The notes under the pieces were generated by a model. It searched no databases, had not been told where the DNA came from, and saw nothing but the letters and a program-made list of their open reading frames with translations. This document shows positions 6,249 through 46,853 of a DNA stretch of 56,109 nucleotides, one piece after another. Both the position numbers and the translations under genes were made by a program. The stretch's first letter is position 1; the number at the start of each line of letters is the position of its first letter. The DNA is from Caldithrix abyssi (GTDB lineage Bacteria; Calditrichota; Calditrichia; Calditrichales; Calditrichaceae), in the NCBI GenBank assembly GCA_011369465.1, contig DRQG01000022.1, positions 1-56,109 of the forward strand, in the 5' to 3' direction.

Positions 6249-6632
6249 CTATTTTATAAATTCGATCAGTTCCACCGGCGCCCCGTTCTCAATAATCATA
6301 GCCACCTTTACACCAGGGGACGGCTTAGAGACTGCGCTGATAATCTCTTTGCCCTTGAGCGCCTGCTCTATATCATCCACTTCAAAAGCCACATGCGGCA
6401 CTTTTTGTATAATTTCCGCTACAGGGCTGTCATCTTCAAAGCGCATCCACTCAATGCCATAAAGACTGGTTTCAAATCCCGATACATACATTTTTAAATG
6501 AGTGATGTATTTTTCGCCGGGCATTTGTTCTGTGGTTGGAATGCCTACATGATGGTATCGCCAGCCTGAATGCTCTGTAACAAATGGTAATTGGCTATCC
6601 CGACGTTTATAGGGCGTATTCCTTCCTTCCAT
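6249..6632 (-). CDS. VOC/glyoxalase-like protein
   Basis: This 127-residue cytosolic protein carries YHHVGIPTTE near the N-terminus, HLKMYVSGFETSLYGIEWMRFE in the middle (quoted in part), and VPHVAFEVDDIEQALKGK and APVELIEF towards the end. These are typical of vicinal-oxygen-chelate (VOC) proteins built from paired beta-alpha-beta-beta-beta units. Metal ligands are plausible at the first His pair and at the C-terminal Glu, but the substrate is unknown. The start overlaps the end of the upstream membrane-protein gene by 26 bases, which suggests translational coupling. Confidence 0.7.
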   Translation of the reverse strand: MEGRNTPYKRRDSQLPFVTEHSGWRYHHVGIPTTEQMPGEKYITHLKMYVSGFETSLYGIEWMRFEDDSPVAEIIQKVPHVAFEVDDIEQALKGKEIISAVSKPSPGVKVAMIIENGAPVELIEFIK

Positions 6633-7314
6633 TTTGTTTCCTTTTATTAAGATTTTTTAGCCTCCTGCTGACAATGATGGCAATGATTCCAAGAGGCAGT
6701 ATACACATCCCGCTTAATACAGTAAGACTATTCAGCTCTTTGCTGTTTAAGACCAGACCGATAAAGGCCGTAATGGATAAAAACGATGACACATACAGCA
6801 GCCAGCCAAATATTTTCATAGGCCCTTTATCAAATAAAAACCGATAACCTATGCAAAAACCACTTATCGCGAAAAATGTATAACCAAGTTGATTGAAGAA
6901 ATATGCGATGGAATGGAAATTACCAAAATACCACCGAATGGCATCTGCGGGTTTTTCGCTGAACAGGCTATTCGTAACTAAGGTAAACTGAGATGTATAG
7001 GCAATAGAAACGAAAACGACGTAAGGCAGTAAAAAGAATATTCCGGTACTGTTCAATATAGGTGTTTTTTTTCGCGAATTTAAAAACAGTCCAACCGTTA
7101 TCATCAAATAGGACAAAGACGGCCCGATGAGGGAAGCTAAAACAAAATTAAGCCGAAACGGAACCGGATTATTGCGGATCTGCTCCAATTGCATTTCTAT
7201 ACTTCCATTCAGGGAAGAAATCGCCATGAAAACAGGCCAAAGAAAAATAACTAACGTGAATATTATTCCAGATACGCTAAGATTTTTCACGATAGATTTA
7301 TCAGATAATTCCAT
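6607..7314 (-). CDS. Polytopic membrane protein of unknown function
   Basis: This 235-residue protein has about six hydrophobic spans (residues 14-34, 57-78, 90-108, 135-155, 166-186 and 198-215) and a short basic C-terminal tail. It resembles DUF4386-type integral membrane proteins in size and layout, but I cannot assign it with certainty. It is followed by the VOC gene in an overlapping arrangement and lies 60 bases downstream of the cytidine deaminase gene. Nothing in the sequence gives a function. Confidence 0.55.
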   Translation of the reverse strand: MELSDKSIVKNLSVSGIIFTLVIFLWPVFMAISSLNGSIEMQLEQIRNNPVPFRLNFVLASLIGPSLSYLMITVGLFLNSRKKTPILNSTGIFFLLPYVVFVSIAYTSQFTLVTNSLFSEKPADAIRWYFGNFHSIAYFFNQLGYTFFAISGFCIGYRFLFDKGPMKIFGWLLYVSSFLSITAFIGLVLNSKELNSLTVLSGMCILPLGIIAIIVSRRLKNLNKRKQNGRKEYAL

Positions 7315-7374: not shown

Positions 7375-7755
7375 TTATTTTTCGTATTGAAAAGGCAGCA
7401 ATTCCGCAATCTTAATTCTTTGCGGTTTATTATCTTTCAGTATAATAACATCCGCCTGCGGGGAATAATCGGCGATCATCTCCCGGCACATACCGCAGGG
7501 CGAAACAATGCGCCCGGTTTCATCCACAGCTACAATGGATTCGATGTCTGTATCGCCAGCCGTAGCGGCGGCGCCTATGGCCACAGCCTCGCCGCAAACG
7601 GTTATGCGTCCCACATAAACTTCCACATGCACACCGCTGAATATTTGGCCAGATCTTGTTCTGAGCGCGGCAGCAATGTGATGCCGGCCTTCAATAAATC
7701 GTTTTTTTATCAACTCCCGGGCGATTTCAATCAGTTCCGCATCCTTTTTATTCAT
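7375..7755 (-). CDS. Cytidine deaminase-family enzyme
   Basis: This 126-residue protein has the zinc signature of the cytidine deaminase family: Cys54-Gly-Glu56 (VCGEAVAIG), then Cys87 and Cys90 in SPCGMCRE. Glu56 would be the proton shuttle. The family hydrolyses cytidine or deoxycytidine to uridine in pyrimidine salvage, although relatives act on blasticidin-like or modified nucleosides. The CGE form, rather than CAE, and the DYSPQADVIIL ending place it among the less well characterised small tetrameric members. Its ATG overlaps the stop of the upstream hydrolase gene by four bases (ATGA), so the two are probably translated together. Confidence 0.8.
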   Translation of the reverse strand: MNKKDAELIEIARELIKKRFIEGRHHIAAALRTRSGQIFSGVHVEVYVGRITVCGEAVAIGAAATAGDTDIESIVAVDETGRIVSPCGMCREMIADYSPQADVIILKDNKPQRIKIAELLPFQYEK

Positions 7756-9878
7756 TTTATTCTCCTTGCTGTAACCATACCATCGGGTTGTCTTAAAAGA
7801 AGCGCATCTACTTTTCCATTTTGATCAAATTTAAAGCGAATACTCACCGTGGAGTACTCTTTGAGATTAAACTCCTCACCCAACTGCGGTACTAAAGTAT
7901 ATTGCGGTTGTCCGGGGACGATAAGTTTCAGGCTGTTCCCCGCCAGTTCGATACGAATCTCGCGTCCGGCGAGATCATACGCGCCCACAAACTGCTGCAG
8001 ATATTGGGCCTCAAACAGTTTTGCCGATGGTTTTTTAACAAATATAATATTATCCACCGCCGGTTCAAAGGGCGCTTCCAGCGCGGCCACATGTCCTTTT
8101 AAATCAGTTCTGAATTGCAGTTTCATATTCTCAAAGGCGTCATCCGGCCCTTTCAAGGCGTTAAAAACCTCATAATGCCAGTGTTCCAGCGGCGTGGTGA
8201 TATCGTTAAAGGTAAATTCCAGGCGGCCATTCTTCAGACGCACGGTAAGCGTACCGTATCCGGGATGTTCATAATCACCCGTATATTCTTTCAGATCGTG
8301 TGCCGGACTGGTGCCTTTTATGCGTTCTGCTTTTTTGGTTTCCTTCGCCTCCTGATCCGCTTCTTTCCCTTTGGCCCTTCTTTCCAGTCCTTCTTTGTTC
8401 CAATCGATAAACTTAAGATTGAAAATACGGTCTGCTGCGTGCCGCGTTACGATTTCCGGCAGATCGGACTGTGATTTATTTACCAATACAACCATACCTA
8501 CGCCGTCGTTGGGAAAGAGCATAACCATGGCCGTGAAACCGTCAATATTGCCGCCGTGGTGCAAACGCCGGTGCCCGCGATAGGTATCGGCAAACCAGCC
8601 CAGCGCGTAATCGGCCGGAGAAATCTCAGGATGTTTTACCGTAGCGCCGGTGGTCATATACGGCGTATGTATATCGTTTAGCGTGGCGTTGTTGATAATC
8701 GTTTTGTTCTTGAATCTGCCATTGTTTAGATGCACCATCAGCCAGTGGCTTAAATCTTCCGCATTGGAATTGATGGAACCCGCCGGACCGATCAGGTCGA
8801 TTTGACGGAAAGGGATTTGTTTTAATTGATTATTTTCTTCCGTATAAGGCAGAGCAAAATCCGCTGTTTTTTGCGATTGCAGAACGGAAAAATTACTGGA
8901 AACCATTTCCAGCGGTTCAAAAATCCGCTCTTTTACCGCTTCTTCCCAGGTTCGGTTGGTTAAACGTCCGGCCAGATATCCTGCGGTTAAAAACATCAGG
9001 TTGTTGTACTGGAATTTTGCTCTTAAATCCGCGTTGGCTTGCAGATAGCGCATACGCCGGACAACTTCCTGACGGCTTATTCGATGATTGTTATACCAGA
9101 GCCTGTCGTGCCGCGGCAGCCCGGAACGATGCGTAACCAAATCGCGCGCTGTAATATGCTGTGAAATAAACGGGTCTTGCAGTTCGAAATCCGGTAAATA
9201 GGTACGCAGCGGTTGGTCCCATTCCAGCTTGCCTTCATCCACCAACGTACCGAGAACAAACGTTGTAAAAGCTTTGGTGCTGGAACCGATGGCAAACACT
9301 GTTTTGGGCGTAATCGGCAGTTTTTTGTCCACATCACGGTAACCGAATCCCTGTTGAAATACCACCTCATTATCACAGACCACCGCCATGGCCAGACCGG
9401 GCACCTGCCAATCCTTGATGGCCTGAGCGATGAAGGCGTCAAAACCACGCAGGGCATTTTTTGCCCGGGCAGCCCTGGTTGCGGCACGGGACAGTGTGAA
9501 AACAAATGTTTGTCCCGATTGCTTAAACTCACCCGAAATCTTACTGCCATCGTCGGATATTTGTCCCGCAAAAGAAGCGTTACCGGGCACATCCGGCAGC
9601 TTAAAACGGATTTTATTACCCTCAATGCTTATCTCACTAAGCGGTAAATCTTTTGCCCCCTGCAACGGGATGGAAATATCTCCGTTTATGATGTTGTCAT
9701 CGTTTATCAGAAAATCGATATCGATTCCCAAAGGCTGGCCGGGCAGCTCTATTTGGCCTTCCCAATGGCCGATAATTCCCTCAGCTTTTTCCTGTGCAGA
9801 CAGAGCGGCGTTGTTCAGCCATAATAGTATAAGTCCAATCGCAAAAAGTGCTGTTCTCAAACGGAAAAAATGTAACAT
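7752..9878 (-). CDS. Exported beta-lactamase-family serine hydrolase with DUF3471-like C-terminus
   Basis: A Sec signal peptide (residues 1-28, ending ALSAQE) is followed by a beta-rich domain (about 35-130), then a class C beta-lactamase/penicillin-binding-protein fold. This carries Ser199-x-x-Lys202 (GSSTKAF), a YNN motif in FQYNNLMF and an HHGG motif in RLHHGGNIDGF. The last about 170 residues resemble the DUF3471/lipocalin-like tail often attached to such enzymes. Members include D-aminopeptidases, esterases and peptidases acting in the periplasm; true beta-lactamase activity should not be assumed. It is the second gene of a minus-strand cluster, 51 bases after the subtilase-like gene, and overlaps the deaminase gene by four bases. 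Confidence 0.8.
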   Translation of the reverse strand: MLHFFRLRTALFAIGLILLWLNNAALSAQEKAEGIIGHWEGQIELPGQPLGIDIDFLINDDNIINGDISIPLQGAKDLPLSEISIEGNKIRFKLPDVPGNASFAGQISDDGSKISGEFKQSGQTFVFTLSRAATRAARAKNALRGFDAFIAQAIKDWQVPGLAMAVVCDNEVVFQQGFGYRDVDKKLPITPKTVFAIGSSTKAFTTFVLGTLVDEGKLEWDQPLRTYLPDFELQDPFISQHITARDLVTHRSGLPRHDRLWYNNHRISRQEVVRRMRYLQANADLRAKFQYNNLMFLTAGYLAGRLTNRTWEEAVKERIFEPLEMVSSNFSVLQSQKTADFALPYTEENNQLKQIPFRQIDLIGPAGSINSNAEDLSHWLMVHLNNGRFKNKTIINNATLNDIHTPYMTTGATVKHPEISPADYALGWFADTYRGHRRLHHGGNIDGFTAMVMLFPNDGVGMVVLVNKSQSDLPEIVTRHAADRIFNLKFIDWNKEGLERRAKGKEADQEAKETKKAERIKGTSPAHDLKEYTGDYEHPGYGTLTVRLKNGRLEFTFNDITTPLEHWHYEVFNALKGPDDAFENMKLQFRTDLKGHVAALEAPFEPAVDNIIFVKKPSAKLFEAQYLQQFVGAYDLAGREIRIELAGNSLKLIVPGQPQYTLVPQLGEEFNLKEYSTVSIRFKFDQNGKVDALLLRQPDGMVTARRIK

Positions 9879-9929: not shown

Positions 9930-11288
9930 TTATTTTAAGATTTCTTTTACTCCTTTGATAAAACCTGTGGGATTAACGACGGCGCCGGCAGAAGTGAGTA
10001 CAGCCGTTTTTAAGAGTAATGCTTTAATCTGCTGCGGACGAATCTGCGGATTCACCTGCAAAGCCAGCGCCGCTAATCCGGCCAGATAGGGCGCGGCCCA
10101 GCTTCGGCCCCCTTCCCGGTCGTAAAAATAGACGCCCGGCCCGCTGTGACCGGCCAGGGTTTTATTGCCGGCCGGAATTCTTATCACATCATCGGGCAAG
10201 CTGTATTTTCCGATTTGATAGCTTTCTGCCAAATCAGGATCGGCGCCCTCGATCCGGGATAATGTACCGAAGCGCCACGTGCTGGTATCGCAGGTGACAA
10301 CAAAAATTCCTCTTTCTTCCGCTTCCTTAAGAACGGTTCGCCATTGGGAAAAGTGTTTTTTAACAGCGAAACGTCCGTCGGAGATGCTTACCACCCGTAT
10401 CATCTCATCCAGCGGCAGCAATTCGTTTAAGGCAAAGATCATGCGCAGAGCTCGGATATAACCGGCATTATCCTTTTCCCACATGGGAACGGCAAACCAG
10501 GAAAGCGCAGCATCCGGCGCCACGCCAAGGTCTTTCCCAACAGCCACAGCCGCTATCGGCGAACCGTGCATTTGCGGCGGAATTCCGGCCATTCCCGTAG
10601 CATCATAGCGAACCAGACGTTCGGCGTATTCCTCATTGTCTAAAAGCAAAGGCTGGTCGATGACGGCTAACCCGACGCCGCGACCGGTGATACCTTGTGC
10701 ATGCAACGAACGGATACCCAATCCGGGATTTTTTCCTGCCTCTAACAGACGGTGCGGATCAAACCCGGCGGGCAGGCTGTCGGCTGCAGGCCACTCGGTG
10801 CGGGAATCGAAGGGCATGGTGGCTAACCAGGCCGATTCATGACTCAAATCCACTTTTCTTAAAGATACGTTTTGCAGGCCTTCTATAGGATTCAATTTTT
10901 TCAAATCGTCGTTATTTCTCAGCACCAATTTTTCGTTTTGTCCGATATCGATCTCTTTTTTATTCATGGAGATATGTAACAGAGTAAAAACGCCCTTTTT
11001 ATCATTGCGATATTTTCCGAATAGGAATTCCAGGTGCGGATAGATCATTTCCAGCACATCCATTCCGCCGTCTTTTCGTTTGATTTCCTTCTGCGGCTGT
11101 CCAAATATTTGCTCGACTTCCTGCGGTTCGGTCAGCTTGTAAGCAATGGCACGCGTTTGCAGCGCTTTGCGGAGTATATCGGTTTGATCAGAGATTTTTT
11201 CCGGTAAGTTTTGCTGTGAAAAAAGACCATGAACGAGCGCAAAGAAAACCAAAGGGCCGAAAAGAAATAGTTGTTTTTTGATGAACAT
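9930..11288 (-). CDS. Exported subtilisin-like (S8) peptidase, divergent
   Basis: The start at 11288 is chosen because it has AGGA upstream and opens directly into a signal peptide (MFIKKQLFLFGPLVFF...); a longer frame to 11339 has neither. From this start Asp211 (GLAVIDQ), His241 (QMHGSPIA) and Ser396 (GRSWAAPYLAGL) match the order and context of the subtilase triad. The usual oxyanion asparagine region (AAGN) reads TCDTS, and GTSMAAP is GRSWAAP, so activity may be weak or altered. An N-terminal domain of about 170 residues has no recognised family. It leads a minus-strand gene cluster. Confidence 0.7.
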   Translation of the reverse strand: MFIKKQLFLFGPLVFFALVHGLFSQQNLPEKISDQTDILRKALQTRAIAYKLTEPQEVEQIFGQPQKEIKRKDGGMDVLEMIYPHLEFLFGKYRNDKKGVFTLLHISMNKKEIDIGQNEKLVLRNNDDLKKLNPIEGLQNVSLRKVDLSHESAWLATMPFDSRTEWPAADSLPAGFDPHRLLEAGKNPGLGIRSLHAQGITGRGVGLAVIDQPLLLDNEEYAERLVRYDATGMAGIPPQMHGSPIAAVAVGKDLGVAPDAALSWFAVPMWEKDNAGYIRALRMIFALNELLPLDEMIRVVSISDGRFAVKKHFSQWRTVLKEAEERGIFVVTCDTSTWRFGTLSRIEGADPDLAESYQIGKYSLPDDVIRIPAGNKTLAGHSGPGVYFYDREGGRSWAAPYLAGLAALALQVNPQIRPQQIKALLLKTAVLTSAGAVVNPTGFIKGVKEILK

Positions 11289-11339
11289 CTTTGTGTCCTT
11301 TCCTGTCATATATGCAGTTCGATTTGCATTGAAATCCAT

Positions 11340-11589
11340 TTAGCGCACCTTAATTGCATTTTTTAAATCCGAAAGCTGTGTTCAGACGTTTATTTTCCCA
11401 GACGAATAATTTTCTCATAAGATTCATTTAAAAAATTGATTCTCTTTACTAGTTATGTGGGTAATTATATTACATCTGCGCTTACAAATGTTGAAAAGTC
11501 TTTTAAACCGATTTTAAATTTCATTATCAAATTTATAAGATAATTTTATATCCTTTAAATCTGCACAGTTTCAAATTATACTGTTAAAT
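11340..11589. other. AT-rich intergenic DNA
   Basis: This is the upstream region of the subtilase-like gene. It is AT-rich with no open frame or hairpin that I can support. A promoter for the minus-strand cluster probably lies here, but I could not pick one with confidence. Confidence 0.3.
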
Positions 11590-11795
11590 ATCCCGTAGGG
11601 ATCGTTCACTATAGCCCACCGATTCATCGGTGGGAAAACCAAATCCGAGCCTATTAAATGTCCCGAAGGGGACATTTGATTTACAATTTTTTGAGGCATC
11701 AATCGTCCCTATCGGGACGAAAACTGTTGTAGGATATCTTTTCCCCACCGATGAATCGGTGGGCTATATTCAGATTCCCCTTTGGGGAAAATAAA
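11590..11795. repeat. Cluster of REP-like palindromes with an inverted pair
   Basis: Five short palindromes lie in about 200 bases: ATCCCGTAGGGAT near 11590, CCCACCGATTCATCGGTGGG at 11615-11634, TGTCCCGAAGGGGACA near 11660, GTCCCTATCGGGAC near 11705, and CCCACCGATGAATCGGTGGG at 11744-11763, with TTCCCCTTTGGGGAA near 11775. The two CCCACCGA palindromes are in opposite orientation with matching flanks (CTATAGCCCACC versus GGTGGGCTATAT). This resembles bacterial interspersed mosaic (REP/BIME) elements. It sits at the 3' end of the envelope operon. Confidence 0.7.
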
Positions 11796-11926
11796 AGCCT
11801 GTTTTGATTTTAGTTGACTCATAGTATATCCTATGTTTTACTTACAGTAAATAATTACTACAAAGTACCCGAAGGACGCAAAGGTTTTAATTTTTTTCGT
11901 GTTCTTATGGGATCGTGGTTTACTAT

Positions 11927-12652
11927 TCAGCGCTGTACTACGATCCCAACTTTCAGATAACTCTGCCCTCCCATGCCTTCGGCCGTATGATAACGGTCTT
12001 CGTAAATGCGGCTGCCGCGGTAAATATCCATATATAAACCGGCACGATAACCGGAAGCGGAACGCCAGGGATAAAAAGCCAACCCCAGGGTCGGCCCTGC
12101 ATCCCATGTGCTGAATCTGTAATCAGGCACATTCCCATAATCCGTTATGGACTTCGAAAATGTATACCCCAGGGAAACTCCTACCTTTAGTTCCAGCGCC
12201 ACCTGATTGCGTTCATTTCTGAAAAATAAAAAATTATAACTCAACGGCAGCCGTATTTGCTGAAAATTGATATCCCTTTGTCCGTAATCGCCCGCCGGAT
12301 AAGTATATCGAACAGACTGGTCAAAAGCGATATAGTCAAGGCCGCTTTCCAGGCGATGGCCGTTTATGTTGATTCCGGCATGTAAACCGGCGGTAAAGGT
12401 TTTGTTGGTTGCTCCGGTGATCGCATCTATGCCGGATTCATCTTCCAACCCGGTCATTGTATTGTTTTCCACCAACCCGCCTCTTGCGGCTCCGGCTAAT
12501 AGTGCAATATTTACTCTGCTCTGCCCAACTCCGTCGTCTTTAAGCGCTTCCGGTCCGACACAGCTCAAAAGAAGCAAAGCGATGACAGCAAAAACAAAAA
12601 AGAATTGACATATACCGGCCGCTAAATTCATGCGTAATTTTGTTATTCTCAC
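11927..12652 (-). CDS. Outer-membrane beta-barrel lipoprotein
   Basis: The GTG start at 12652 is supported by AGAGGA seven bases upstream. A hydrophobic leader ends in the lipobox LLLLSC, so the mature protein is probably lipid-anchored. The remaining about 205 residues alternate in short amphipathic strands (GLHAGININGHRLESGLDY, IRLPLSYNFLFF, KVGVSLGYTFS, PTLGLAFYPW) and end in a strand-like LKVGIVVQR, as in small porin-like OMP barrels. It is the last gene of the six-gene operon, 11 bases after the DUF6544-like gene. No specific function can be assigned. Confidence 0.65.
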   Translation of the reverse strand: MRITKLRMNLAAGICQFFFVFAVIALLLLSCVGPEALKDDGVGQSRVNIALLAGAARGGLVENNTMTGLEDESGIDAITGATNKTFTAGLHAGININGHRLESGLDYIAFDQSVRYTYPAGDYGQRDINFQQIRLPLSYNFLFFRNERNQVALELKVGVSLGYTFSKSITDYGNVPDYRFSTWDAGPTLGLAFYPWRSASGYRAGLYMDIYRGSRIYEDRYHTAEGMGGQSYLKVGIVVQR

Positions 12653-12663
12653 AGTGCTGTCCT

Positions 12664-13476
12664 CTATTCATATACAGCGGCAATATTGTATTCAATTGTA
12701 TAAATTTCCGGTTTATACCAGCAAAAGTCGCCATCATCCAGTTTCCAGACCACTTCGCTCTTTCTGGGAATGAAAACATCGTTAAAAGAGCTGTATTCGA
12801 CAATGCGTATTTCCCAGTCTTCCAATTCGAACCTGCCGTCCTTTTCCATATAGCGTTTGGTCGTTATTTTTTCCACCTGGTTCTTTTTGTTAAAATGGAA
12901 GGTAGCCGAAACGGAAAAATCACCGAGCGTTATGGTCGCTTTGGCCGACCGTTCATCCAACGCCTGCCAGCGGATGTAGTCGTTTAAAAATACGGATGGG
13001 AACCAGACGCCCTCTGCTAAAAAGCGTACGACTTCCCCTTGATTCACTTCGGGGCCTTCGGCGGAAGCAATTTTAATGAATCCCAGTAATTTTACGGTCA
13101 TATCACCTTTACCATTCAGAAAACGATCCGTAGCGGTGATGACGCTGACCTTACCCTGCCAAATAAATTCCATGGCCTCCAGGTTAAAATATTGCACCGC
13201 TTTCAGGGTTTTAAATTCATCTTCCGGTTTTAAACGGAAGCCGCCACCCTGTTTCAGGCGTACGGTTTTAATTTTTTCTTTGCCGATAATATTGGTGAAG
13301 CGCAAGTAATTTTGCACAACCTGCGGCAACGGCTTCAAATCTTCTTCGGATATTTTGTCTGCGGCTACCACATCAACCTTATCAAACATTTTGTTTACTG
13401 TTTTATTCATAGTTGTACACCCCATCGTTAAAATGACTAAAAAAAGCAAATGCGTTGTTTTTTTAAATCCTGCCAT
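12664..13476 (-). CDS. DUF6544-like lipoprotein
   Basis: The start has a strong GGGAGG upstream. A short leader ends in LTMGC, a lipobox, giving a lipid-anchored protein of about 250 residues. The order of motifs LPQVVQNYLRF, KTVRLKQGGGFR, EFIWQGKVSV, GKGDMTVKLLG, GEVVRFLAEGVWFPS and a C-terminal IPRKSEVVWKLDDGDFCWY matches DUF6544, a family of unknown function seen in many bacteria. Its start overlaps the end of the preceding 113-residue gene by 14 bases, so it is probably coupled to it. It belongs to the putative sigma-54-controlled envelope operon. Confidence 0.65.
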   Translation of the reverse strand: MAGFKKTTHLLFLVILTMGCTTMNKTVNKMFDKVDVVAADKISEEDLKPLPQVVQNYLRFTNIIGKEKIKTVRLKQGGGFRLKPEDEFKTLKAVQYFNLEAMEFIWQGKVSVITATDRFLNGKGDMTVKLLGFIKIASAEGPEVNQGEVVRFLAEGVWFPSVFLNDYIRWQALDERSAKATITLGDFSVSATFHFNKKNQVEKITTKRYMEKDGRFELEDWEIRIVEYSSFNDVFIPRKSEVVWKLDDGDFCWYKPEIYTIEYNIAAVYE

Positions 13477-13804
13477 TTTTTCCTCCCTTTTTTATTTCTT
13501 GAAATTTTGAGATAGTTTTTTTTCCCGTTTCCTGTTCTACCCACACAGTATGATTAACCAATCCGAAATCTTTTAAATCTGAGGCCAGCCTTTCTCCCAG
13601 GATACAGACATCCGCGTCCTGTGTTTTCGAATCGTATTGCACATGGATGCTAAAATCGGTTTCCAGCTCGGCCTGCCTGTATATTTTGACCAGCAGCGCT
13701 TTCCTCTCCGCCAGCACCTGCGTCTGCCAGCGCCATAAAAACGCTTCCACGGCTTCTCTGTTTTTTCGCACGGTTCGTAATTCAATGATATCCAGTCGCG
13801 TCAT
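13463..13804 (-). CDS. Uncharacterised 113-residue protein in envelope operon
   Basis: This small soluble protein has no signal peptide. The N-terminal half is helical and charged (MTRLDIIELRTVRKNREAVEAFLW, quoted in part) and the C-terminal half is strand-like (FSIHVQYDS, ADVCILGERLAS, NHTVWVEQ). The size and pattern resemble ferredoxin-like dimeric alpha-beta proteins such as the Dabb/ABM group, but I cannot assign a family. It lies eight bases after the serine hydrolase gene and overlaps the lipoprotein gene by 14 bases. This makes it the only evidently cytosolic member of the operon. Confidence 0.5.
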   Translation of the reverse strand: MTRLDIIELRTVRKNREAVEAFLWRWQTQVLAERKALLVKIYRQAELETDFSIHVQYDSKTQDADVCILGERLASDLKDFGLVNHTVWVEQETGKKTISKFQEIKKGGKNGRI

Positions 13805-13812
13805 AATTTCGC

Positions 13813-15318
13813 TTATCCCAGTTGATTTCTTTTTCTGTTATAATACCGATTTACTTCCCTGTAAGGGAATACCGCCGATAGCAACAAAAGCACGGCTAAA
13901 ACAAGAACAGACCACCCCAGCCAACCCGAGACTACGGGAAACAGAGAGGAGATGAACAGGTAGTCCTGATTTGCAGACCAGATCAGAGCCGCCAATGCAA
14001 CCGCCGACGTTGCGTACTGCATGATTTGCACAAAACCAGATTTTTTTGATAAGGGAGTAAAACGGCGCAAGCCGGAGAGAATTCCTGTCCCCAGGCGTAT
14101 GGCCTGCCCCAATACCGCAAGCATAATCAAAGCGATCAGTCCCCATAAAATTTTACGGCCCCGGATGATTTGATACATTCCGGGCATGGGTAATCCACAC
14201 CAGTTTGTCCAGTCGTTTAAAATAAGGGCGATGAACGGCCAACTACGCTGGCTATTGGTCAAAATGACAATGCCGTCGCCTGTTTGCGGAACAGAGTGAA
14301 AATGGGTCATCCAACCCGAACCCTGCCCGCCGTGTGCAACCGCCGTTATCCCGTCCGCTAAGTATTCAATAAAATGCCCCAATCCGTAGGCGTCAAAAGC
14401 AAAGCCGAAAAGCCCGGGAATCGGCACTGTTTCCGTATAAAACGCCTTGATGCTTTGTGGGCTGAGTACCCCCCAGCCCTTTCGTGAATAGCGGGTCATA
14501 CCGGCGGATACAAACAGAGCAATATCTTCAACCGTGGCAAAAAGACCGCCCGAGGCCTTATCGGGGTATACATATACCGGGATCGCCCGGCCGCTTAAAT
14601 CGTAACCGTTGGGGACGGGTGGATTCCATTTCGCACTCCAGGTAAACGAAGAATGATTCATGCCAAGCGGGTGCAATACTTCTGCGGCCATATATTCCGA
14701 AAAATCTCGGCCCGTCACCTCTTCTATTAACAGTTCGAGCAGATTAAACCCGGTGTTGGAATAGGAAAAGGCGGCACCGGGTTCCTGTTGTAGTACGGCT
14801 TCGTCATTCAGATACTCCGCCAACGAAGGTATGTCCTGCCCGGGAGCGTAGCGTACACCGATGGTCCCCAATGGCAGGCCGGCGTTATGGCTGAGCAGCC
14901 GCCGTACGGTTATTTTTTCCGTAGAAAATTCAGAACGGGGAAACTGCCAGTTCTTTAAATATCTTTGTACCGGCATATCCAATTCTATTTTGCCCTGTTC
15001 AACCAATTTCATCACGCCCCAGGCGGTAACGGATTTGGAAATGGATTCTACCCGGCAGCGTGTATCGGTTGTCATCTTGCGGCCCTTTTCGACGTCAGCC
15101 AATCCGTAAGCGCTTGTCCAGACGATTTCGCCGTTTTGAATAAGCGCCATACTCACACCGGGAATGCCGTAGGTATTCATCAACAACGGTATCCGCTCAT
15201 TAAGATAAAAAGTGAATTGCTGTAAGGGAATCCGCTCTCTGTTTCCTTCAGCGGCAGCGCCTTGCCTGGCAAATATCAGCAGCATTGAGACCAGCATGGC
15301 CATAAAAAATTTCTTCAT
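13813..15318 (-). CDS. Exported beta-lactamase-family serine hydrolase with C-terminal membrane spans
   Basis: The start at MKKFFMAMLVSMLL is chosen because it gives a clean Sec signal peptide ending QGAAAEG; a longer frame reaches 15393 but has no Shine-Dalgarno, and neither start is strongly supported. The catalytic part has SISK (in RVESISKSV), YSN (FSYSNTGFN) and HGG (VAHGGQGSGW), the three motifs of the class C beta-lactamase/esterase fold. The last about 140 residues contain roughly four hydrophobic spans, so the hydrolase is anchored in the inner membrane facing the periplasm. The substrate is probably a peptide, ester or cell-wall fragment. It is the third gene of the operon. Confidence 0.75.
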   Translation of the reverse strand: MKKFFMAMLVSMLLIFARQGAAAEGNRERIPLQQFTFYLNERIPLLMNTYGIPGVSMALIQNGEIVWTSAYGLADVEKGRKMTTDTRCRVESISKSVTAWGVMKLVEQGKIELDMPVQRYLKNWQFPRSEFSTEKITVRRLLSHNAGLPLGTIGVRYAPGQDIPSLAEYLNDEAVLQQEPGAAFSYSNTGFNLLELLIEEVTGRDFSEYMAAEVLHPLGMNHSSFTWSAKWNPPVPNGYDLSGRAIPVYVYPDKASGGLFATVEDIALFVSAGMTRYSRKGWGVLSPQSIKAFYTETVPIPGLFGFAFDAYGLGHFIEYLADGITAVAHGGQGSGWMTHFHSVPQTGDGIVILTNSQRSWPFIALILNDWTNWCGLPMPGMYQIIRGRKILWGLIALIMLAVLGQAIRLGTGILSGLRRFTPLSKKSGFVQIMQYATSAVALAALIWSANQDYLFISSLFPVVSGWLGWSVLVLAVLLLLSAVFPYREVNRYYNRKRNQLG

Positions 15319-15395
15319 CCGCCGTTGGCAAATATTATAGATTGCACCCATGAATGTATCGATATTTTTTTTCACCGTTCGTCCCGTCAGCATCT

Positions 15396-16307
15396 TTAAA
15401 ATTGTAGATTATTATTGTATTTTGATTTTGGAATGCCTTCTGGTTCTCCACCCAAAATATGATTCCGTAATAATTTGAAATCCAAAGCGCCGGAGATGTG
15501 TCCTTTTTCAACAGCCGTTATGCGATGCGCATCATAGCAGCGCTTTTGCCTGTCATAACGGATAATTTGATCGTACAAGCCTAATAGGGGATATACATTG
15601 TGTTTATCTTTCCCTGCAAATTGATCATCAAAGTTCAGAATCCTGCGCAGCTGTGCGGGATTCTCTTTAGCCAGAGGAGCGGTGAGTATTTGATAAGCCG
15701 AATCCAGAAAGACCTCGGCCAGACCGGCGCCTGCCATCAACGGCTTGTATTTATCGGCGCTGTTGTAAAAGGCGTGGTGCAAATTGGCGACCCAACCGCC
15801 CAGACTGATACCCGAGACGATCACTCCGGCGTTTGTTCTTTCCCGGCTGAACAACACCAACTGCTCAATGACCTGCACCGAAACCGACAGCATAGCCGTG
15901 AAATTTGCCAGATCTTTTATGCTGTTCATATACTCCCGTGAGGTATGGTTAAAGGGCGCACGTACCACGATTAGATTGGCCGGTGTGTTCCCTTTTTTCA
16001 GTCGGAATATATGGTTGAAGCTCCGGTCATAAGGATTTTCACCGCTGCCGTGATGATAAATTACCGTCGGATAATCCCTACCCTTCCACTGAGCGATTCT
16101 GAAAGCGGCGTCTAATCCGCCAAGCAGTGTATCGGCCCGAAGCTCATACTGTTTTTCCCATTTGATTTCAGGCAGCCGCAGACGGATGTTCTGCAAATGT
16201 TCGCTAAACGAGGGGCTTTCTATGCCGCTTCCAAAGAATTTGAACTGCAGGAAAAGAAGCGCCGACAGATTGACGGAGAGCCTGTCCAGAATGGTGTGTA
16301 TGTTCAT
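15396..16307 (-). CDS. Alpha/beta-hydrolase
   Basis: The start at 16307 (MNIHTILDRL) is preferred over 16346 because AGGAAG lies ten bases upstream. The protein has the nucleophile elbow GISLGGW, an oxyanion-type HHGSGE motif and a C-terminal GHISGA histidine, the layout of an alpha/beta-hydrolase of about 300 residues. There is no clear signal peptide. Esterase, lipase or peptidase activity is possible; the substrate is unknown. It is the second gene of the operon: 53 bases after the Omp85-type gene, measured from this start, and just ahead of the membrane-anchored serine hydrolase. Confidence 0.7.
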   Translation of the reverse strand: MNIHTILDRLSVNLSALLFLQFKFFGSGIESPSFSEHLQNIRLRLPEIKWEKQYELRADTLLGGLDAAFRIAQWKGRDYPTVIYHHGSGENPYDRSFNHIFRLKKGNTPANLIVVRAPFNHTSREYMNSIKDLANFTAMLSVSVQVIEQLVLFSRERTNAGVIVSGISLGGWVANLHHAFYNSADKYKPLMAGAGLAEVFLDSAYQILTAPLAKENPAQLRRILNFDDQFAGKDKHNVYPLLGLYDQIIRYDRQKRCYDAHRITAVEKGHISGALDFKLLRNHILGGEPEGIPKSKYNNNLQF

Positions 16308-16360
16308 GGTTTGAAATCTTCCTTTTTTTATTGGTAATCCGTTCATAATACGGATGATGT

Positions 16361-17464
16361 TTATAGCGCTTCACCGATGGTGATGTACATACCGTTTGAT
16401 TGATTCCCGTAAGCAAGATCAAAACGGATATTCAGCCTTTCTTCCGGTACTATCAGGAAACGAATACCTGCGCCTACGGAGTATTTAACATTCTGCCACT
16501 CAAAATTATCTATTTTGTCGGCTACATCACCCCAGCCTGCAAAAACCACCGCGCCAAAACGACCCCACAAGGGCATCAACCGGTATTCCATCCGAAAAAC
16601 AAACATGTTCTTATCCCGGTAACGGCCCTCATAATAACCGCGCATTAAGTTTTGCCCGTCTATCCTGCCGGCGAGCTGAGACAGTTTTTGAAAGGGCGGC
16701 CGGCCGCTGGTGATATTCATATATCCTTGCAGAGCCAAAACCGACGAGGAAAACAAAGAAAAATAGCGTCTCAGGTCCAGTGTATAGCGTTGGTAATCAT
16801 AATCGCTGCCTATGGCCCCGCTGAAGAAACCGACATAAAGCTGATAATATTTTCCCGACGTCGGATAGAATATATTCTGTCGCGTATCCCACCTCAGCAT
16901 GAAACCAATACCGTAAAGATACCCTCCTGCGCTGCCGGGAATATTCCCTGCGGCCAGCAATCCGTCGTTTTCCTTTTGGATAATTCCATTGCGTTCAAAT
17001 TCATATTGAATTCCGGCATGGAATCCGTTGGATATTTTCCGCTGCAGACTGAAGGCCAGTCTGAATATCTGCGGTGTGTAGCTCTCTTCCGCAGATACGG
17101 ATGTATTGTTACCGATGCCGTAAAACTTATCGGGAAACTTTTTGTAACCCAGATAACCCGACAGATAATACCTGTCCTCTTTCCAGTACAACGCCGTGTA
17201 AATATCGCAGATGATCTGCTTTTCCTGTGTATAAATAAAGGACGGCATAATGAGAGATGGCCGGCCTGTCCGGTCCTTTTGCCTGGCACGAAAATAATAG
17301 CTTAGCGCGACGCCGGCGCCTATTCGGGTTTCCGGCGAATACATGAGAATCGGCAGAGGGATGAACCCGCTTCTTTTCCGGTTGAGTGAATCCCGTTCTT
17401 TCCCGCTTACCAATGGCGGCCAAAGAATCAGACTCATTATTAGGATCAGAAAAAACTTTTGCAT
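16361..17464 (-). CDS. Omp85/BamA-type surface-antigen barrel protein
   Basis: The start at 17464 is supported by GAGAGGGG upstream and a signal peptide (MQKFFLILIMSLILW...). The mature protein is a run of amphipathic strands without obvious POTRA domains. It has the Omp85 features LRWDTRQNIFYPTSGKYYQ, a GYYEGRYRDKNMF segment like the conserved RGY...YR motif, and FRMEYRLMPLWGRFGAVVFAG (quoted in part). This is the barrel of the bacterial surface antigen (D15) family, in the short form without POTRA. Such proteins may secrete or insert partner proteins or act as pores. It is the first gene of the envelope operon and is read from the sigma-54-type promoter at 17528-17541. Confidence 0.75.
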   Translation of the reverse strand: MQKFFLILIMSLILWPPLVSGKERDSLNRKRSGFIPLPILMYSPETRIGAGVALSYYFRARQKDRTGRPSLIMPSFIYTQEKQIICDIYTALYWKEDRYYLSGYLGYKKFPDKFYGIGNNTSVSAEESYTPQIFRLAFSLQRKISNGFHAGIQYEFERNGIIQKENDGLLAAGNIPGSAGGYLYGIGFMLRWDTRQNIFYPTSGKYYQLYVGFFSGAIGSDYDYQRYTLDLRRYFSLFSSSVLALQGYMNITSGRPPFQKLSQLAGRIDGQNLMRGYYEGRYRDKNMFVFRMEYRLMPLWGRFGAVVFAGWGDVADKIDNFEWQNVKYSVGAGIRFLIVPEERLNIRFDLAYGNQSNGMYITIGEAL

Positions 17465-17515: not shown

Positions 17516-17543
17516 ACGTATTATATGGCGAAAACCGTGCCGT
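17516..17543 (-). promoter_or_regulatory. Sigma-54 (-24/-12) promoter
   Basis: On the minus strand GGCACGGTTTTCGC (plus-strand 17528-17541) has the invariant GG and GC elements separated by exactly ten bases, and CACG follows GG as in the consensus TGGCACG-N4-TTGC; the bases that differ are the first T and one T before GC. Transcription would start near 17516, 52 bases before the chosen ATG at 17464. It lies between the envelope operon and a divergent sigma-54 activator gene, which supports the call. Confidence 0.7.
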
Positions 17544-17594: not shown

Positions 17595-17612
17595 ATTACC
17601 AAATACGGTAAT
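17595..17612. promoter_or_regulatory. Palindromic operator/UAS 1
   Basis: ATTACC (17595-17600) and GGTAAT (17607-17612) form a perfect inverted repeat around six bases. Its centre lies about 88 bases upstream of the predicted sigma-54 start, where enhancer-binding activators usually bind. The half-site recurs in UAS 2. Confidence 0.6.
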
Positions 17613-17618
17613 TTTAAA

Positions 17619-17647
17619 TTGACATATATGGTAATTCCATGCATATT
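17619..17647 (+). promoter_or_regulatory. Sigma-70 promoter of the activator gene
   Basis: TTGACA at 17619-17624 is a perfect -35 hexamer, followed after 17 bases by CATATT (17642-17647), a 4/6 match to TATAAT. The predicted start is near 17654, about 31 bases before the ATG at 17685. The -10 region lies inside UAS 2, so the activator could repress its own gene. Confidence 0.45.
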
Positions 17648-17654
17648 TACCATA
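17627..17654. promoter_or_regulatory. Palindromic operator/UAS 2
   Basis: TATGGTAA (17627-17634) and TTACCATA (17647-17654) form a perfect eight-base inverted repeat with a 12-base spacer. It shares the GGTAA half-site with UAS 1 and is centred about 125 bases upstream of the predicted sigma-54 start. Confidence 0.6.
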
Positions 17655-17684
17655 TTTGATAACCATCCCATGACAGGACTCCCC

Positions 17685-19229
17685 ATGGATAAAAACCTGT
17701 TTTTCCGTCAGGCTACGCTGCGTATCTGCGGCAATCTGGAAATTGAACAAGCCCTGTATTCCGTTTTCCGCTTCTTGCAAGAGGAAATGCCGCTTAGCCG
17801 GATGACGCTCCAGTTATATGAAAAAGAGCTAAAAGCTGTACGCACCATAGCCGTGGCGACACCCGAAGGCGCCAGGGAAGTGGACTTTCTCACCCCGCTT
17901 TCCAATGAAGCCCGCCGGCAGATTGAGCAAAAGATTCGGCTCAAAGAAGCGCAGCCGCATCTTCATCTGGTCAACGAAGATACCCCTCGTATTTATCTGG
18001 AGATGTTTCGCTTTCATGGCGTCAGGGGCAGTTCGTTTATCATTATGCCGCTTAATGTGGGCGCACGGTATATCGGTTCATTAACGCTCATAAGCGAAGG
18101 CAAAGAGGTGTTTACCCAGGCGCATGTGGATCGGATTGCGTTGCTTAAAGAACCTTTTGTCATCGCTCTTTCCAACACAATCCGCTATCATGAAGTGGTT
18201 AAGCTGAAAAATCTGCTCAAAGACGACAACCGTTACCTGTTTCAGGAAATCCGCCATCTTACCGGAGACGAAATCATCGGTACGAATTTCGGTTTAAAAG
18301 AGGTGATGAATCAGGTGCAGAGGGTGGCCGCCCTGGATAGTCCGGTGCTTCTGTTAGGTGAAACAGGCGTTGGTAAGGATGTGATCGCCAACGCCATTCA
18401 CTATTCCTCATCCCGCAAAGACGGTCCTTTTGTAAAGGTTAATTGCGGGGCCATTCCGGATTCTTTGATCGACAGCGAACTGTTCGGCCATGAAAAGGGC
18501 GCCTTCACCGGCGCGTTGAGCCAGAAACGGGGACGGTTTGAACGGGCCGACAAGGGTACCATTTTCCTGGATGAGATCGGCGAGCTGCCTTTACAGGCCC
18601 AGTCGCGCTTGTTGCGGGTTTTACAACATAAGGAAATCGAACGGGTGGGCGGTAACAAAACCATACGGCTGGACATTCGTTTTATCGCCGCTACCAATCG
18701 GAATCTGGAGGATATGGTACGGAAAAATCAATTTCGCGAAGACCTTTTTTTTCGTCTGAACGTTTTTCCCATCCGAGTTCCGCCGTTACGGGAACGCGCA
18801 GCCGATATTCCGGCGCTGACGCAGTTTTTTGTCAGCAAAAAAGCTAAGGAACTCAAACTACCGGGTGTTCCTCATCTTGCTGCCGGCGCGGTGGATATTT
18901 TAACCGCTTATCAATGGCCGGGCAATGTGCGTGAGCTGGAAAACGTGGTAGAAAGAGCCTTAATCCTAAATCCCGAAGGCCCGCTGACCTTCAATGATTT
19001 ATCCGGCGGCAGGCCAACTTCAGCACAGACGGATATTATTGATGAAGGACAATGGGAAACGCTGGACAGCCTGACTGCGCGTTATATTCAGCGGGTTCTG
19101 TCCAAAACCAACGGCCGGATAAACGGCAAGGACGGCGCAGCGGAAATATTGGGCATCAATCCCAACACTTTAAGAAACCGGATGAGAAAACTGGGAATTG
19201 GGTTCGGCCGACAAGAGTCATACAATTAG
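17685..19229 (+). CDS. GAF-domain sigma-54-dependent transcriptional activator
   Basis: The start at 17685 is chosen because AGGA lies upstream and longer frames would run through the operator palindromes. An N-terminal GAF-like sensor covers about residues 15-175. The AAA+ domain has Walker A GETGVGKD at 225-232, the sigma-54 contact loop GAFTGA at 272-277, and the GTIFLDEIGELPL Walker B segment. The C-terminus carries a Fis-type helix-turn-helix (GAAEILGINPNTLRNRMRKL). It resembles the NorR/FhlA class, activated by a small ligand at the GAF domain rather than by phosphorylation. It is divergent from the envelope operon and is its probable activator. Confidence 0.9.
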   Translation: MDKNLFFRQATLRICGNLEIEQALYSVFRFLQEEMPLSRMTLQLYEKELKAVRTIAVATPEGAREVDFLTPLSNEARRQIEQKIRLKEAQPHLHLVNEDTPRIYLEMFRFHGVRGSSFIIMPLNVGARYIGSLTLISEGKEVFTQAHVDRIALLKEPFVIALSNTIRYHEVVKLKNLLKDDNRYLFQEIRHLTGDEIIGTNFGLKEVMNQVQRVAALDSPVLLLGETGVGKDVIANAIHYSSSRKDGPFVKVNCGAIPDSLIDSELFGHEKGAFTGALSQKRGRFERADKGTIFLDEIGELPLQAQSRLLRVLQHKEIERVGGNKTIRLDIRFIAATNRNLEDMVRKNQFREDLFFRLNVFPIRVPPLRERAADIPALTQFFVSKKAKELKLPGVPHLAAGAVDILTAYQWPGNVRELENVVERALILNPEGPLTFNDLSGGRPTSAQTDIIDEGQWETLDSLTARYIQRVLSKTNGRINGKDGAAEILGINPNTLRNRMRKLGIGFGRQESYN

Positions 19230-23534: not shown

Positions 23535-23707
23535 CGATCCGACTCCTTATCTATTTATTAATTCCAGCGTAGGGCTTCCTAATCTATCTGTAACCAAATA
23601 ATGTACTGCCTCATTCCTTCCATCCATCCCTTTTTTATGAATGAATTAATTCGTATCTTATCGGGTAATCTTTTCTTTAAATGAAAATAACGACCGGAGG
23701 TTCATTT

Positions 23708-25231
23708 ATGGCCATTGTCCTCGACGGATCGAGTTTAACCATCGAAAAACTGGTGCGTATCGCCCGTTTTAATGAAAAAGTAGAACTGCATCCCGACGCC
23801 TTAACCCGCATAAAAAAATGCCGTGCAATGCTGGAAGAAAAAATAAAAGCGCGGGAAATTATGTATGGTATCAACACTGGGATCGGTGAGTTCTCGGAAG
23901 TGGTTTTAAGCGACGAGCAGGTTAAACAGTTTCAGAAATATCTCATCTATAACCATGCCGCCGGCATTGGCGATCCTGCGCCGATTGAATATATCCGTGG
24001 CGCTATGGCCGGCCGGATTAACGTACATGCCAAAGGCCACTCCGGTTGCCGCCCGGAAATTACGCTAACCCTGGTGGAGATGCTCAACAAAGGCGTAACG
24101 CCGGTTGTCTGCCAGAAAGGATCGGTCGGCGCTTCCGGTGACCTGGCGCCTATGTCGCAAATCGCGCTTTTATTAATGGGTGAAGGTGAGGCTTATTACA
24201 AAGGCGAACGCCTTCCCGGCAAGACCGCCCTGGAACGGGCAGGCATTCCCATTCCCGGCCTGGAAGCCCGTGACGGTCTGGCCACGATTAACGGTTCCAA
24301 TGTACTTACTGCCATGAGTGCCATCCATTTATACGATATCAATCGCTGGCTCAAACAGGCTGAAATCGCTGCCGCCATGTCTCTGGAAGCCCTGCACGCC
24401 AATATGAAGCCCTACGACGAACGTCTGCATAAAGCGCGCGGATTCAGCGGCCCCATCCGCAGCGCTCGGGCCATAAAAAAATGTATTGACGGCAGCGATC
24501 TGCTTTCCGGTAAAATTAAGCAAAAAGTGCAGGACGCCTATTCCATGCGCTCCACGCCGCAGGTTATCGGCGCGGCCCACGACGCTGTGGCCTATGCCCG
24601 CAGTCAGGTGGAAACCGAACTCAACGGCGTGGGCGATAACCCGGTCTTTTTTACCGACGAAAAGCTCACCCTCACCGGCGCCAATTTTCAGGGTACGCCG
24701 GTTGCTTTGCCTATGGATATGGTCGGTGCGGCGGTAACTATGGTCAGCGTGATGTCCGAACGTCGTCTGAACCGTTTGAACAATCCCGCTTTAAGCGTGG
24801 GCCTGCCGCCCTTTCTGACCAAAGGGGCCGGTATGTTTTCCGGTATGATGCTCAGCCAATACACGGCAGATACGCTCATCGTAGAACAACGTATCCTTTC
24901 CGCGCCGGCCTCCGTACAGTCCATTCCGGCTGCCGCCGATCAGGAAGATTTTGTTTCCATGGGTATGAATACCGCCCTAAAAAATGCCCAGATTTTGGAA
25001 AACGCCTACGGTGTATTGGGAATCGAATTTATGGCTGCCGCGCAGGCATTGGACTTGCGTAATTTTAAAAACGGCCGGGGTGTTACGACGGCTAAAGCGG
25101 TCATCCGCAAATACGTGGATTTTTTAGACGAAGATCGGCCTCTGCATGCCGATCATACGCGTATGCAAAAGCTGGTTAAATCGGCCGAAATACTGGAAGC
25201 GGTTGAAGCGGAAGTGGGCAGTTTAGGATAG
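23708..25231 (+). CDS. MIO-dependent aromatic amino-acid ammonia-lyase, histidine-type
   Basis: The start at 23708 is used because GGAGG lies eight bases upstream; a frame from 23681 overlaps that site. Ala142-Ser143-Gly144 in SVGASGDLAP form the MIO cofactor, at the same numbering as in well-studied histidine ammonia-lyases. Other lyase residues are present: the YGINTG tyrosine, the HAAG histidine, INGSN, QDAYSMRSTPQ and DQEDFVSMG. The Glu of QED is usual for histidine lyases, whereas phenylalanine/tyrosine lyases have Gln or Asn there. Phe replaces the His that normally follows in QEDHVSM. No hutU, hutI or hutG is adjacent, so the substrate remains open. Confidence 0.85.
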   Translation: MAIVLDGSSLTIEKLVRIARFNEKVELHPDALTRIKKCRAMLEEKIKAREIMYGINTGIGEFSEVVLSDEQVKQFQKYLIYNHAAGIGDPAPIEYIRGAMAGRINVHAKGHSGCRPEITLTLVEMLNKGVTPVVCQKGSVGASGDLAPMSQIALLLMGEGEAYYKGERLPGKTALERAGIPIPGLEARDGLATINGSNVLTAMSAIHLYDINRWLKQAEIAAAMSLEALHANMKPYDERLHKARGFSGPIRSARAIKKCIDGSDLLSGKIKQKVQDAYSMRSTPQVIGAAHDAVAYARSQVETELNGVGDNPVFFTDEKLTLTGANFQGTPVALPMDMVGAAVTMVSVMSERRLNRLNNPALSVGLPPFLTKGAGMFSGMMLSQYTADTLIVEQRILSAPASVQSIPAAADQEDFVSMGMNTALKNAQILENAYGVLGIEFMAAAQALDLRNFKNGRGVTTAKAVIRKYVDFLDEDRPLHADHTRMQKLVKSAEILEAVEAEVGSLG

Positions 25232-46766: not shown

Positions 46767-46853
46767 GCGAAAGTGGTGGAACTGGTAGACGCGCTAGGTT
46801 CAGGGTCTAGTGCCCGCAAGGGCGTGGGGGTTCGACTCCCCCCTTTCGCACCA
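46767..46853 (+). tRNA. tRNA-Leu (CAG)
   Basis: The acceptor stem GCGAAAG/CTTTCGC pairs perfectly and the encoded ACCA end is present. A D-arm with GGTAGACGC, the anticodon stem around CAG (46801-46803), a long variable arm (TGCCCGCAAGGGCG) and a T-arm GGGGGTTCGACTCCCCC complete a class II leucine tRNA of 87 bases. The variable arm and the similarity to E. coli tRNA-Leu(CAG) support the identity. Confidence 0.97.

Follow-up and report, generated by a model that had tools for sequence, protein, structure and literature searches.

A GAF-type sigma-54 activator and its constant partner protein in Caldithrix abyssi: a possible ligand-inducible switch with exchangeable detoxification cargo

The closest described counterparts of the locus analyzed here are the regulatory systems of NorR and of PspF, two sigma-54 activators of which the latter is without a GAF domain. 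NorR is a GAF-AAA+-helix-turn-helix (HTH) activator whose target operon, norVW, lies across a shared intergenic region with a sigma-54 promoter and three enhancer sites that scaffold the hexameric activator, and the output of the system is detoxification (PMC2941729). PspF is encoded divergently from an operon with a constant early gene, and PspA is its negative regulator (PMC3128695). We examined a 56,109-nucleotide stretch of Caldithrix abyssi DNA (contig DRQG01000022.1 of assembly GCA_011369465.1), hereafter the window, in which the gene for a GAF-type sigma-54 activator, REG, is divergent from a minus-strand operon whose first six genes we term A to F. The activator class and the divergent layout are already known from NorR and PspF; the pairing of REG with the small protein D, the D family itself, and the envelope-related cargo set were all found unnamed in the libraries and open papers searched. 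The author of a preliminary description of this DNA knew of no named system with these genes, and we likewise found none in Pfam, NCBIfam, PADLOC, PDB, or the open literature searched.

REG carries the PF00158 AAA+ domain, a GAFTGA loop, and a Fis-type HTH, which together identify it as a bacterial enhancer-binding protein (bEBP). In the window copy the GAF domain did not reach the Pfam cutoff, which it passed in the G005 ortholog. REG fell short of the NCBIfam equivalog cutoffs for NorR (351 versus 476 bits), NifA (381 versus 528.85 bits), and FhlA (377 versus 830 bits), and the locus further differs from that of NorR in having no nitric oxide reductase and in the presence of a constant extra partner, D.

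Profiles of D and of the N-terminal (GAF) region of REG were each searched against 385 genomes. True matches to D came from ten genomes, and the strong matches to the REG GAF profile (E < 1e-79) came from exactly the same ten, with D adjoining REG on its divergent side in every case. Further searches added REG-D neighbors in G387, G388, and G450, as well as on a plasmid of Vibrio sp. THAF190c that was found independently by the REG query and by the D query and on which D is annotated as "hypothetical protein". All 14 of the D genes found thus adjoin a REG gene. Very weak D matches in G334, G375, and G012 were rejected as short, partial, or within long open reading frames (ORFs). D is spread over at least four phyla, those being Calditrichota and the phyla of G232, of G115/G387/G388, and of G121/G450; the Vibrio locus could fall in one of the three non-Calditrichota phyla or in none of them. 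Its distribution is patchy, with REG-D in 7 of 40 Calditrichota, 2 of 247 genomes in the phylum of G121, and 1 of 41 in the class of G450, and D was not found in the viral contigs or phages searched, the Vibrio locus being the one plasmid match. D is the first divergent gene at 12 of the 14 loci; it is preceded by a barrel gene in G121 and by A, B, and C in the window. We consider the locus very probably a functional conserved module. In the REG tree, the copy from G006, of the same family as the window's organism, groups with high support as sister to that from G024, which belongs to another order. Flanking genes also vary from locus to locus, and the two observations together argue for horizontal movement.

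The cargo behind REG changes with lineage. It consists of MFP and RND genes in G115 and G388, TolC-type and RND genes in G387, an alpha/beta hydrolase in G450, an OmpW-like barrel in G121, and SDR or NAD(P)H-binding enzymes in G232, G010, G016, and Vibrio; further out, G016 also encodes a metallo-beta-lactamase-fold protein and a methyltransferase. More distant REG relatives that have no recognizable D stand in similar company: those of G149 and G286 adjoin an FMN-reductase-like gene (assigned by Pfam in G149, and by eye for a 210-residue protein in G286), followed in G149 by genes for an outer-membrane efflux protein and EmrAB-like proteins, and that of G157 stands before MFP/RND-like genes. 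Because efflux, redox, and hydrolytic enzymes dominate the cargo, we favor detoxification over an envelope-only role. The preliminary description had read the six genes as a candidate system by which a compound related to the envelope would be taken up, exported, or modified in a coordinated way. The constant part is instead REG with D, and since in other phyla the pair stands with RND efflux, SDR, or hydrolase cargo, the proposed role is better replaced by that of an inducible detoxification or chemical-stress switch with exchangeable cargo. As a separate observation on the efflux genes, L063 9145-13590 and L095 9898-14490 are single ORFs of 1481 and 1530 residues, each encoding an RND pump fused to a TolC-type efflux protein; Pfam recognized ACR_tran and two OEP stretches in the L095 fusion, and a signal-peptide-like stretch lies at the join in L063.

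A sigma-54-type promoter directed away from REG, with a score of at least 13.5, was present in all 17 intergenic regions, the 99th percentile of random 200-bp stretches being 13.3. The stock TGGCAY pattern, with one mismatch allowed, gave no match at the locus, as the window promoter starts with CGGCAC and ends with CGCC. Three 16-bp palindromes (consensus TTACCATATATGGTAA) occur at spacings of 22-23 and 28 bp in all seven Calditrichota, at 23/28 in the Vibrio locus, and at 22/20 in G115 and G388, and when a matrix trained only on the Calditrichota operators was applied to other phyla, G115, G388, and G121 outscored every one of 500 dinucleotide shuffles. The consensus differs from what we take to be the NorR site. 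Conservation of the sigma-54 promoter together with the operators bears out the earlier view of an envelope-heavy operon under a GAF/sigma-54 activator. Operator 2 lies over the -35 box and operator 3 beside the -10 box of the sigma-70-like REG promoter, an arrangement that predicts repression by REG of its own promoter. The window's genome has the triple site only here, and REG therefore looks like a local switch. Single operator matches elsewhere in the genome were near background (13 + 15 versus 12 + 7 for a control pattern), so we claim no wider REG regulon. A tandem array (AAATCCGTG...CACGGAT units) lengthens the region between REG and D in G005 (L031 about 12370-12650); it parts the operator triple from REG, beside which a further operator copy lies.

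As read from sequence, the gene set, its recurrence, the promoter, the operators, the REG-D linkage, and the swapping of cargo suggest a sigma-54 switch that a ligand would induce and whose cargo, for detoxification or chemical stress, is exchangeable, a reading to which we give about an even chance. REG would sit on the three phased operator palindromes of the divergent promoter region and repress its own sigma-70 promoter, and its GAF domain would receive as signal a small molecule, probably a toxicant of lipophilic or aromatic/quinone-like nature. The AAA+ ring of the signaled REG would contact sigma-54 RNA polymerase at the GG-N10-GC promoter and turn the operon on; from known bEBP biology, the ligand would be expected to relieve repression by the GAF domain, and sigma-54 polymerase to form an open complex. 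D, predicted to be a small soluble dimeric protein of the alpha/beta-barrel type, would most likely bind or convert the same ligand, or bind REG, and thereby tune or reset the switch. The remaining genes would be effectors that differ by lineage. In the window they would comprise four serine hydrolases, the LolA-like lipoprotein E, the outer-membrane barrels A and F, a deaminase-like enzyme, and a DUF4386 membrane protein, which at the envelope would degrade the compound, bind it, and transport it. We infer more weakly the lipophilic or aromatic/quinone-like nature of the inducer, the part of the hydrolases and barrels as detoxification effectors, and that of D as a ligand-handling or feedback partner. 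In its boldest form, REG and D would make up an undescribed two-protein sensing switch, with D a dedicated ligand-handling partner or anti-activator, and a portable promoter cassette that captures detoxification and envelope cargo across phyla; we hold this to be possible, at rather less than an even chance.

D matched no Pfam or NCBIfam family and had no significant sequence match in PDB, and the Pfam ABM profile gave no match in seven D members at E <= 5. D was predicted (mean pLDDT 74) to have the order beta-alpha-beta-beta-alpha-beta. In this order and in size it resembles the ABM-type dimeric alpha/beta barrels LsrG, SnoaB, and Rv0793, from which it differs in the lack of a Pfam ABM match, in Foldseek E values above 0.03, and in its own residues R10, G81, H85, and W88, invariant in 14 of 14 D proteins. 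The model therefore suggests a dimeric alpha/beta-barrel-type fold and stops short of membership in the ABM family. The open literature searched held nothing on this type of GAF/sigma-54 activator with an ABM-like partner. D might nonetheless be an ordinary cargo enzyme, an ABM-like monooxygenase that comes first by happenstance, with the NorR-like activator as the sole regulatory unit. ABM-type structures are indeed among the top Foldseek matches and near REG relatives without D exist, yet all other cargo has been exchanged while D was kept beside REG in 14 of 14 cases with the same four invariant residues, and we regard this alternative as doubtful. It leaves a role in detoxification intact and challenges only the view of D as a regulator; an active regulatory partnership of D with REG is one that we put forward tentatively.

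The six ORFs of the preliminary description were all found on the minus strand with the positions and spacing it gave (Table 1), the gaps from A through F being 14, 2, 8, -14, and 11 bp. Alignment with relatives supports its start for A at 17464, which, like that of REG at 17685, is the start codon common to the relatives. Its six-gene extent, however, was too short, as the unit comprises about ten genes (17464-6607), continuing beyond F through the S8, BLA708, deaminase-like, and DUF4386 genes. The same cluster holds these distal four in relatives, and a single transcript from A to DUF4386 is presumed. Listed outward from REG, the order in the window is A-B-C-D-E-F-S8-BLA708-CDA-DUF4386. In G005 it is D-M1-like peptidase-membrane protein-unknown-E-F-S8-BLA708-DUF4386-C-A; in G006, D-membrane protein-hydrolase-E-F-S8-BLA708, where the contig ends; in G024, D-HXXEE protein-E-S8-BLA708-CDA-unknown-A-C, B lying on the opposite side of REG; and in G017, D-membrane protein-E-F-A-C. 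The preliminary description had proposed that recurrent linkage of at least four of the six genes with the activator would mark a system, and five of six stand beside REG in G005, G017, and G024, in shuffled order; G006 has three of the six before its contig end. Among 40 Calditrichota genomes, S8 was found only in four with this cluster, and close E orthologs (>60% identity) only in genomes with REG-D. One relative, recorded as a member of the Calditrichota, has an E 69% identical to that of the window, and the phylum assignment follows from it. A short contig of G014 (L037 2759-4257) carries an E (39%) and F (58%) pair with no visible REG or D, and E and F may form a sub-module.

Table 1. 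Features of the REG locus in the window, with the REG-D pair of the Vibrio plasmid
Feature	Position	Strand	Remarks
REG: GAF / AAA+ (GAFTGA) / Fis-HTH sigma-54 activator, divergent	17685..19229	+	start codon from ortholog alignment
Operator 3 TTACCATATTTGATAA (predicted)	17647..17662	.	abuts REG -10 box
Operator 2 TTGACATATATGGTAA (predicted)	17619..17634	.	covers REG -35 box
Operator 1 TTACCAAATACGGTAA (predicted)	17596..17611	.	
Sigma-70-like REG promoter, TTGACA-N17-CATATT	17619..17647	+	consensus match only
Sigma-54 promoter CGGCACGGTTTTCGCC (GG-N10-GC)	17527..17542	-	predicted to drive operon
A: Omp85-superfamily outer-membrane barrel without POTRA	16361..17464	-	ORF and Pfam
B: alpha/beta hydrolase (GISLGG)	15396..16346	-	alternative start possible at 16307
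C: serine beta-lactamase/S12-fold hydrolase with C-terminal membrane segments	13813..15393	-	SISK, YSN, HGG motifs
D: 113-residue beta-alpha-beta-beta-alpha-beta protein (predicted)	13463..13804	-	constant partner of REG
E: DUF6544/DUF6920 putative lipoprotein	12664..13476	-	LolA-like predicted fold
F: probable outer-membrane barrel lipoprotein	11927..12652	-	
REP-like palindromic block	11571..11807	.	in F-S8 gap
S8: subtilase-family serine protease	9930..11339	-	signal sequence
BLA708: beta-lactamase-fold hydrolase with DUF3471	7752..9878	-	
CDA: cytidine-deaminase-like protein	7375..7755	-	start overlaps BLA708 stop
DUF4386 membrane protein	6607..7314	-	last gene assigned to operon
Vibrio sp. 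THAF190c REG-D pair (WP_253895616.1, WP_152470757.1)	L124 7553-9542		plasmid; SDR, NAD(P)H oxidoreductase, methyltransferase genes alongside

The gap between F and S8 measures 587 bp and carries REP-like palindromes. The same two genes are only 18 bp apart in G005, so the block looks like an insertion. Lying inside the operon, it contains two perfect 20-bp palindromes (CCCACCGATNNATCGGTGGG) and GGGAC/GTCCC hairpins, and the palindrome has no second copy elsewhere in the window. Near the locus and outside the unit is a gene for an aromatic amino acid lyase of the HAL/PAL family (23681-25231), and a type I restriction enzyme R-subunit-like protein is encoded at 47862-51251, near tRNA-Leu (46767-46853).

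Pfam upheld the earlier family calls of an Omp85 barrel without POTRA, a beta-lactamase-fold hydrolase, a DUF6544-like protein, and a sigma-54 activator. A matched the Omp85 barrel domain PF01103 (49 bits versus a cutoff of 24, E = 7e-13) and had no POTRA match in Pfam, its barrel beginning shortly after the signal sequence. For two others the call stood in part: the alpha/beta-hydrolase match of B was below the Pfam cutoff, with the GISLGG nucleophile motif present, and F gave a weak outer-membrane barrel match. C, a hydrolase of PF00144 (E = 4e-64), has hydrophobic segments at its C terminus and is similar to S12-type peptidases and esterases. Like the ClbP-type membrane-anchored S12 peptidases (PMC9889268), it has membrane segments C-terminal to a secreted S12/class-C-type domain, and it differs from them in having no surrounding biosynthetic cluster and in being closest by sequence, among solved structures, to the Pyrococcus abyssi PBP-related protein 2qmi. 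E matched DUF6544/DUF6920 (E = 1e-71; 241 bits for DUF6544 versus a gathering score of 25), and nothing on DUF6544 was found in the open literature searched. Of the structure predictions that had been suggested for D and E, that of E gave a confident model (pLDDT 89), which Foldseek matched to the LolA superfamily, with P. gingivalis LolA3 at E = 5e-7 and probability 1.0. E thus shares its predicted fold with LolA, LolA3, and NE2245, from which it differs in its DUF6544/DUF6920 assignment, in being itself a putative lipoprotein, and in an identity of about 10%. Given this fold, E probably carries or binds a hydrophobic ligand. PADLOC, run over the gene set, returned only a generic subtilase match for S8, and a known anti-phage defense system was rejected.

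Several observations weigh against a REG-D switch with detoxification cargo. D is fourth, not first, in the window; the 587-bp gap before S8 makes co-transcription of the distal genes less certain; and with the Calditrichota-trained matrix operators were not recognizable in G387 and borderline in G450. The link between REG and D reads as strong and not absolute, since the three more distant REG relatives of G149, G157, and G286 have no recognizable D and the D-bearing REGs do not form one clade in the REG tree. The Foldseek matches of D to ABM-type folds are below significance (best E 0.04), though with a probability of 0.9-1.0. Lastly, the envelope hydrolases could be explained equally well by nutrient scavenging or cell-wall work.

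An operon for remodeling envelope lipids, lipoproteins, or the outer membrane would accommodate the LolA-like E, the outer-membrane barrels A and F, and the E-F linkage kept in G014 without a visible REG. REG would then sense an envelope signal by a logic like that of PspF, in which D would act as negative regulator. That the signal is specific to the envelope is unlikely, however, as REG-D elsewhere precedes cytoplasmic SDR, methyltransferase, and RND pump genes. The resemblance to PspF and PspA also ends at the layout, as the cargo is unrelated and D, with its predicted beta-alpha-beta-beta-alpha-beta order and alpha/beta ferredoxin-like fold, is unlike PspA, a coiled-coil protein (PMC6003685). 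We consider remodeling unlikely. A scavenging operon, whose secreted protease, hydrolases, and outer-membrane proteins would degrade and take up a polymer or a peptide or ester, with its breakdown product as the inducer, seems more improbable still. S8, the two S12-type hydrolases, the alpha/beta hydrolase, and the M1-like peptidase of G005 are degradative and two outer-membrane barrels are at hand, but no TonB receptor, SusCD pair, or importer gene is present among the cluster genes read, and the RND efflux and SDR cargo of other phyla do not fit feeding. Finally, that unrelated genes came together by chance on an island is very improbable, for despite shuffled order and differing genomic surroundings the same set is kept in several genomes with promoter and operators conserved, and S8 never occurs outside the cluster in the 40 genomes.

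The cargo list, then, points to an inducible chemical-stress response. With a promoter, operators, and a partner defined, the ligand would be directly screenable in a laboratory host, and Vibrio sp. THAF190c, a cultured and named strain with REG-D, offers an experimental handle. If the proposed switch is correct, D, a protein labeled "hypothetical" publicly and absent from the family libraries searched, would gain a testable job as the partner of a sigma-54 activator, and the locus would exemplify a sigma-54 regulatory cassette that is itself conserved as one set of target genes is swapped for another.

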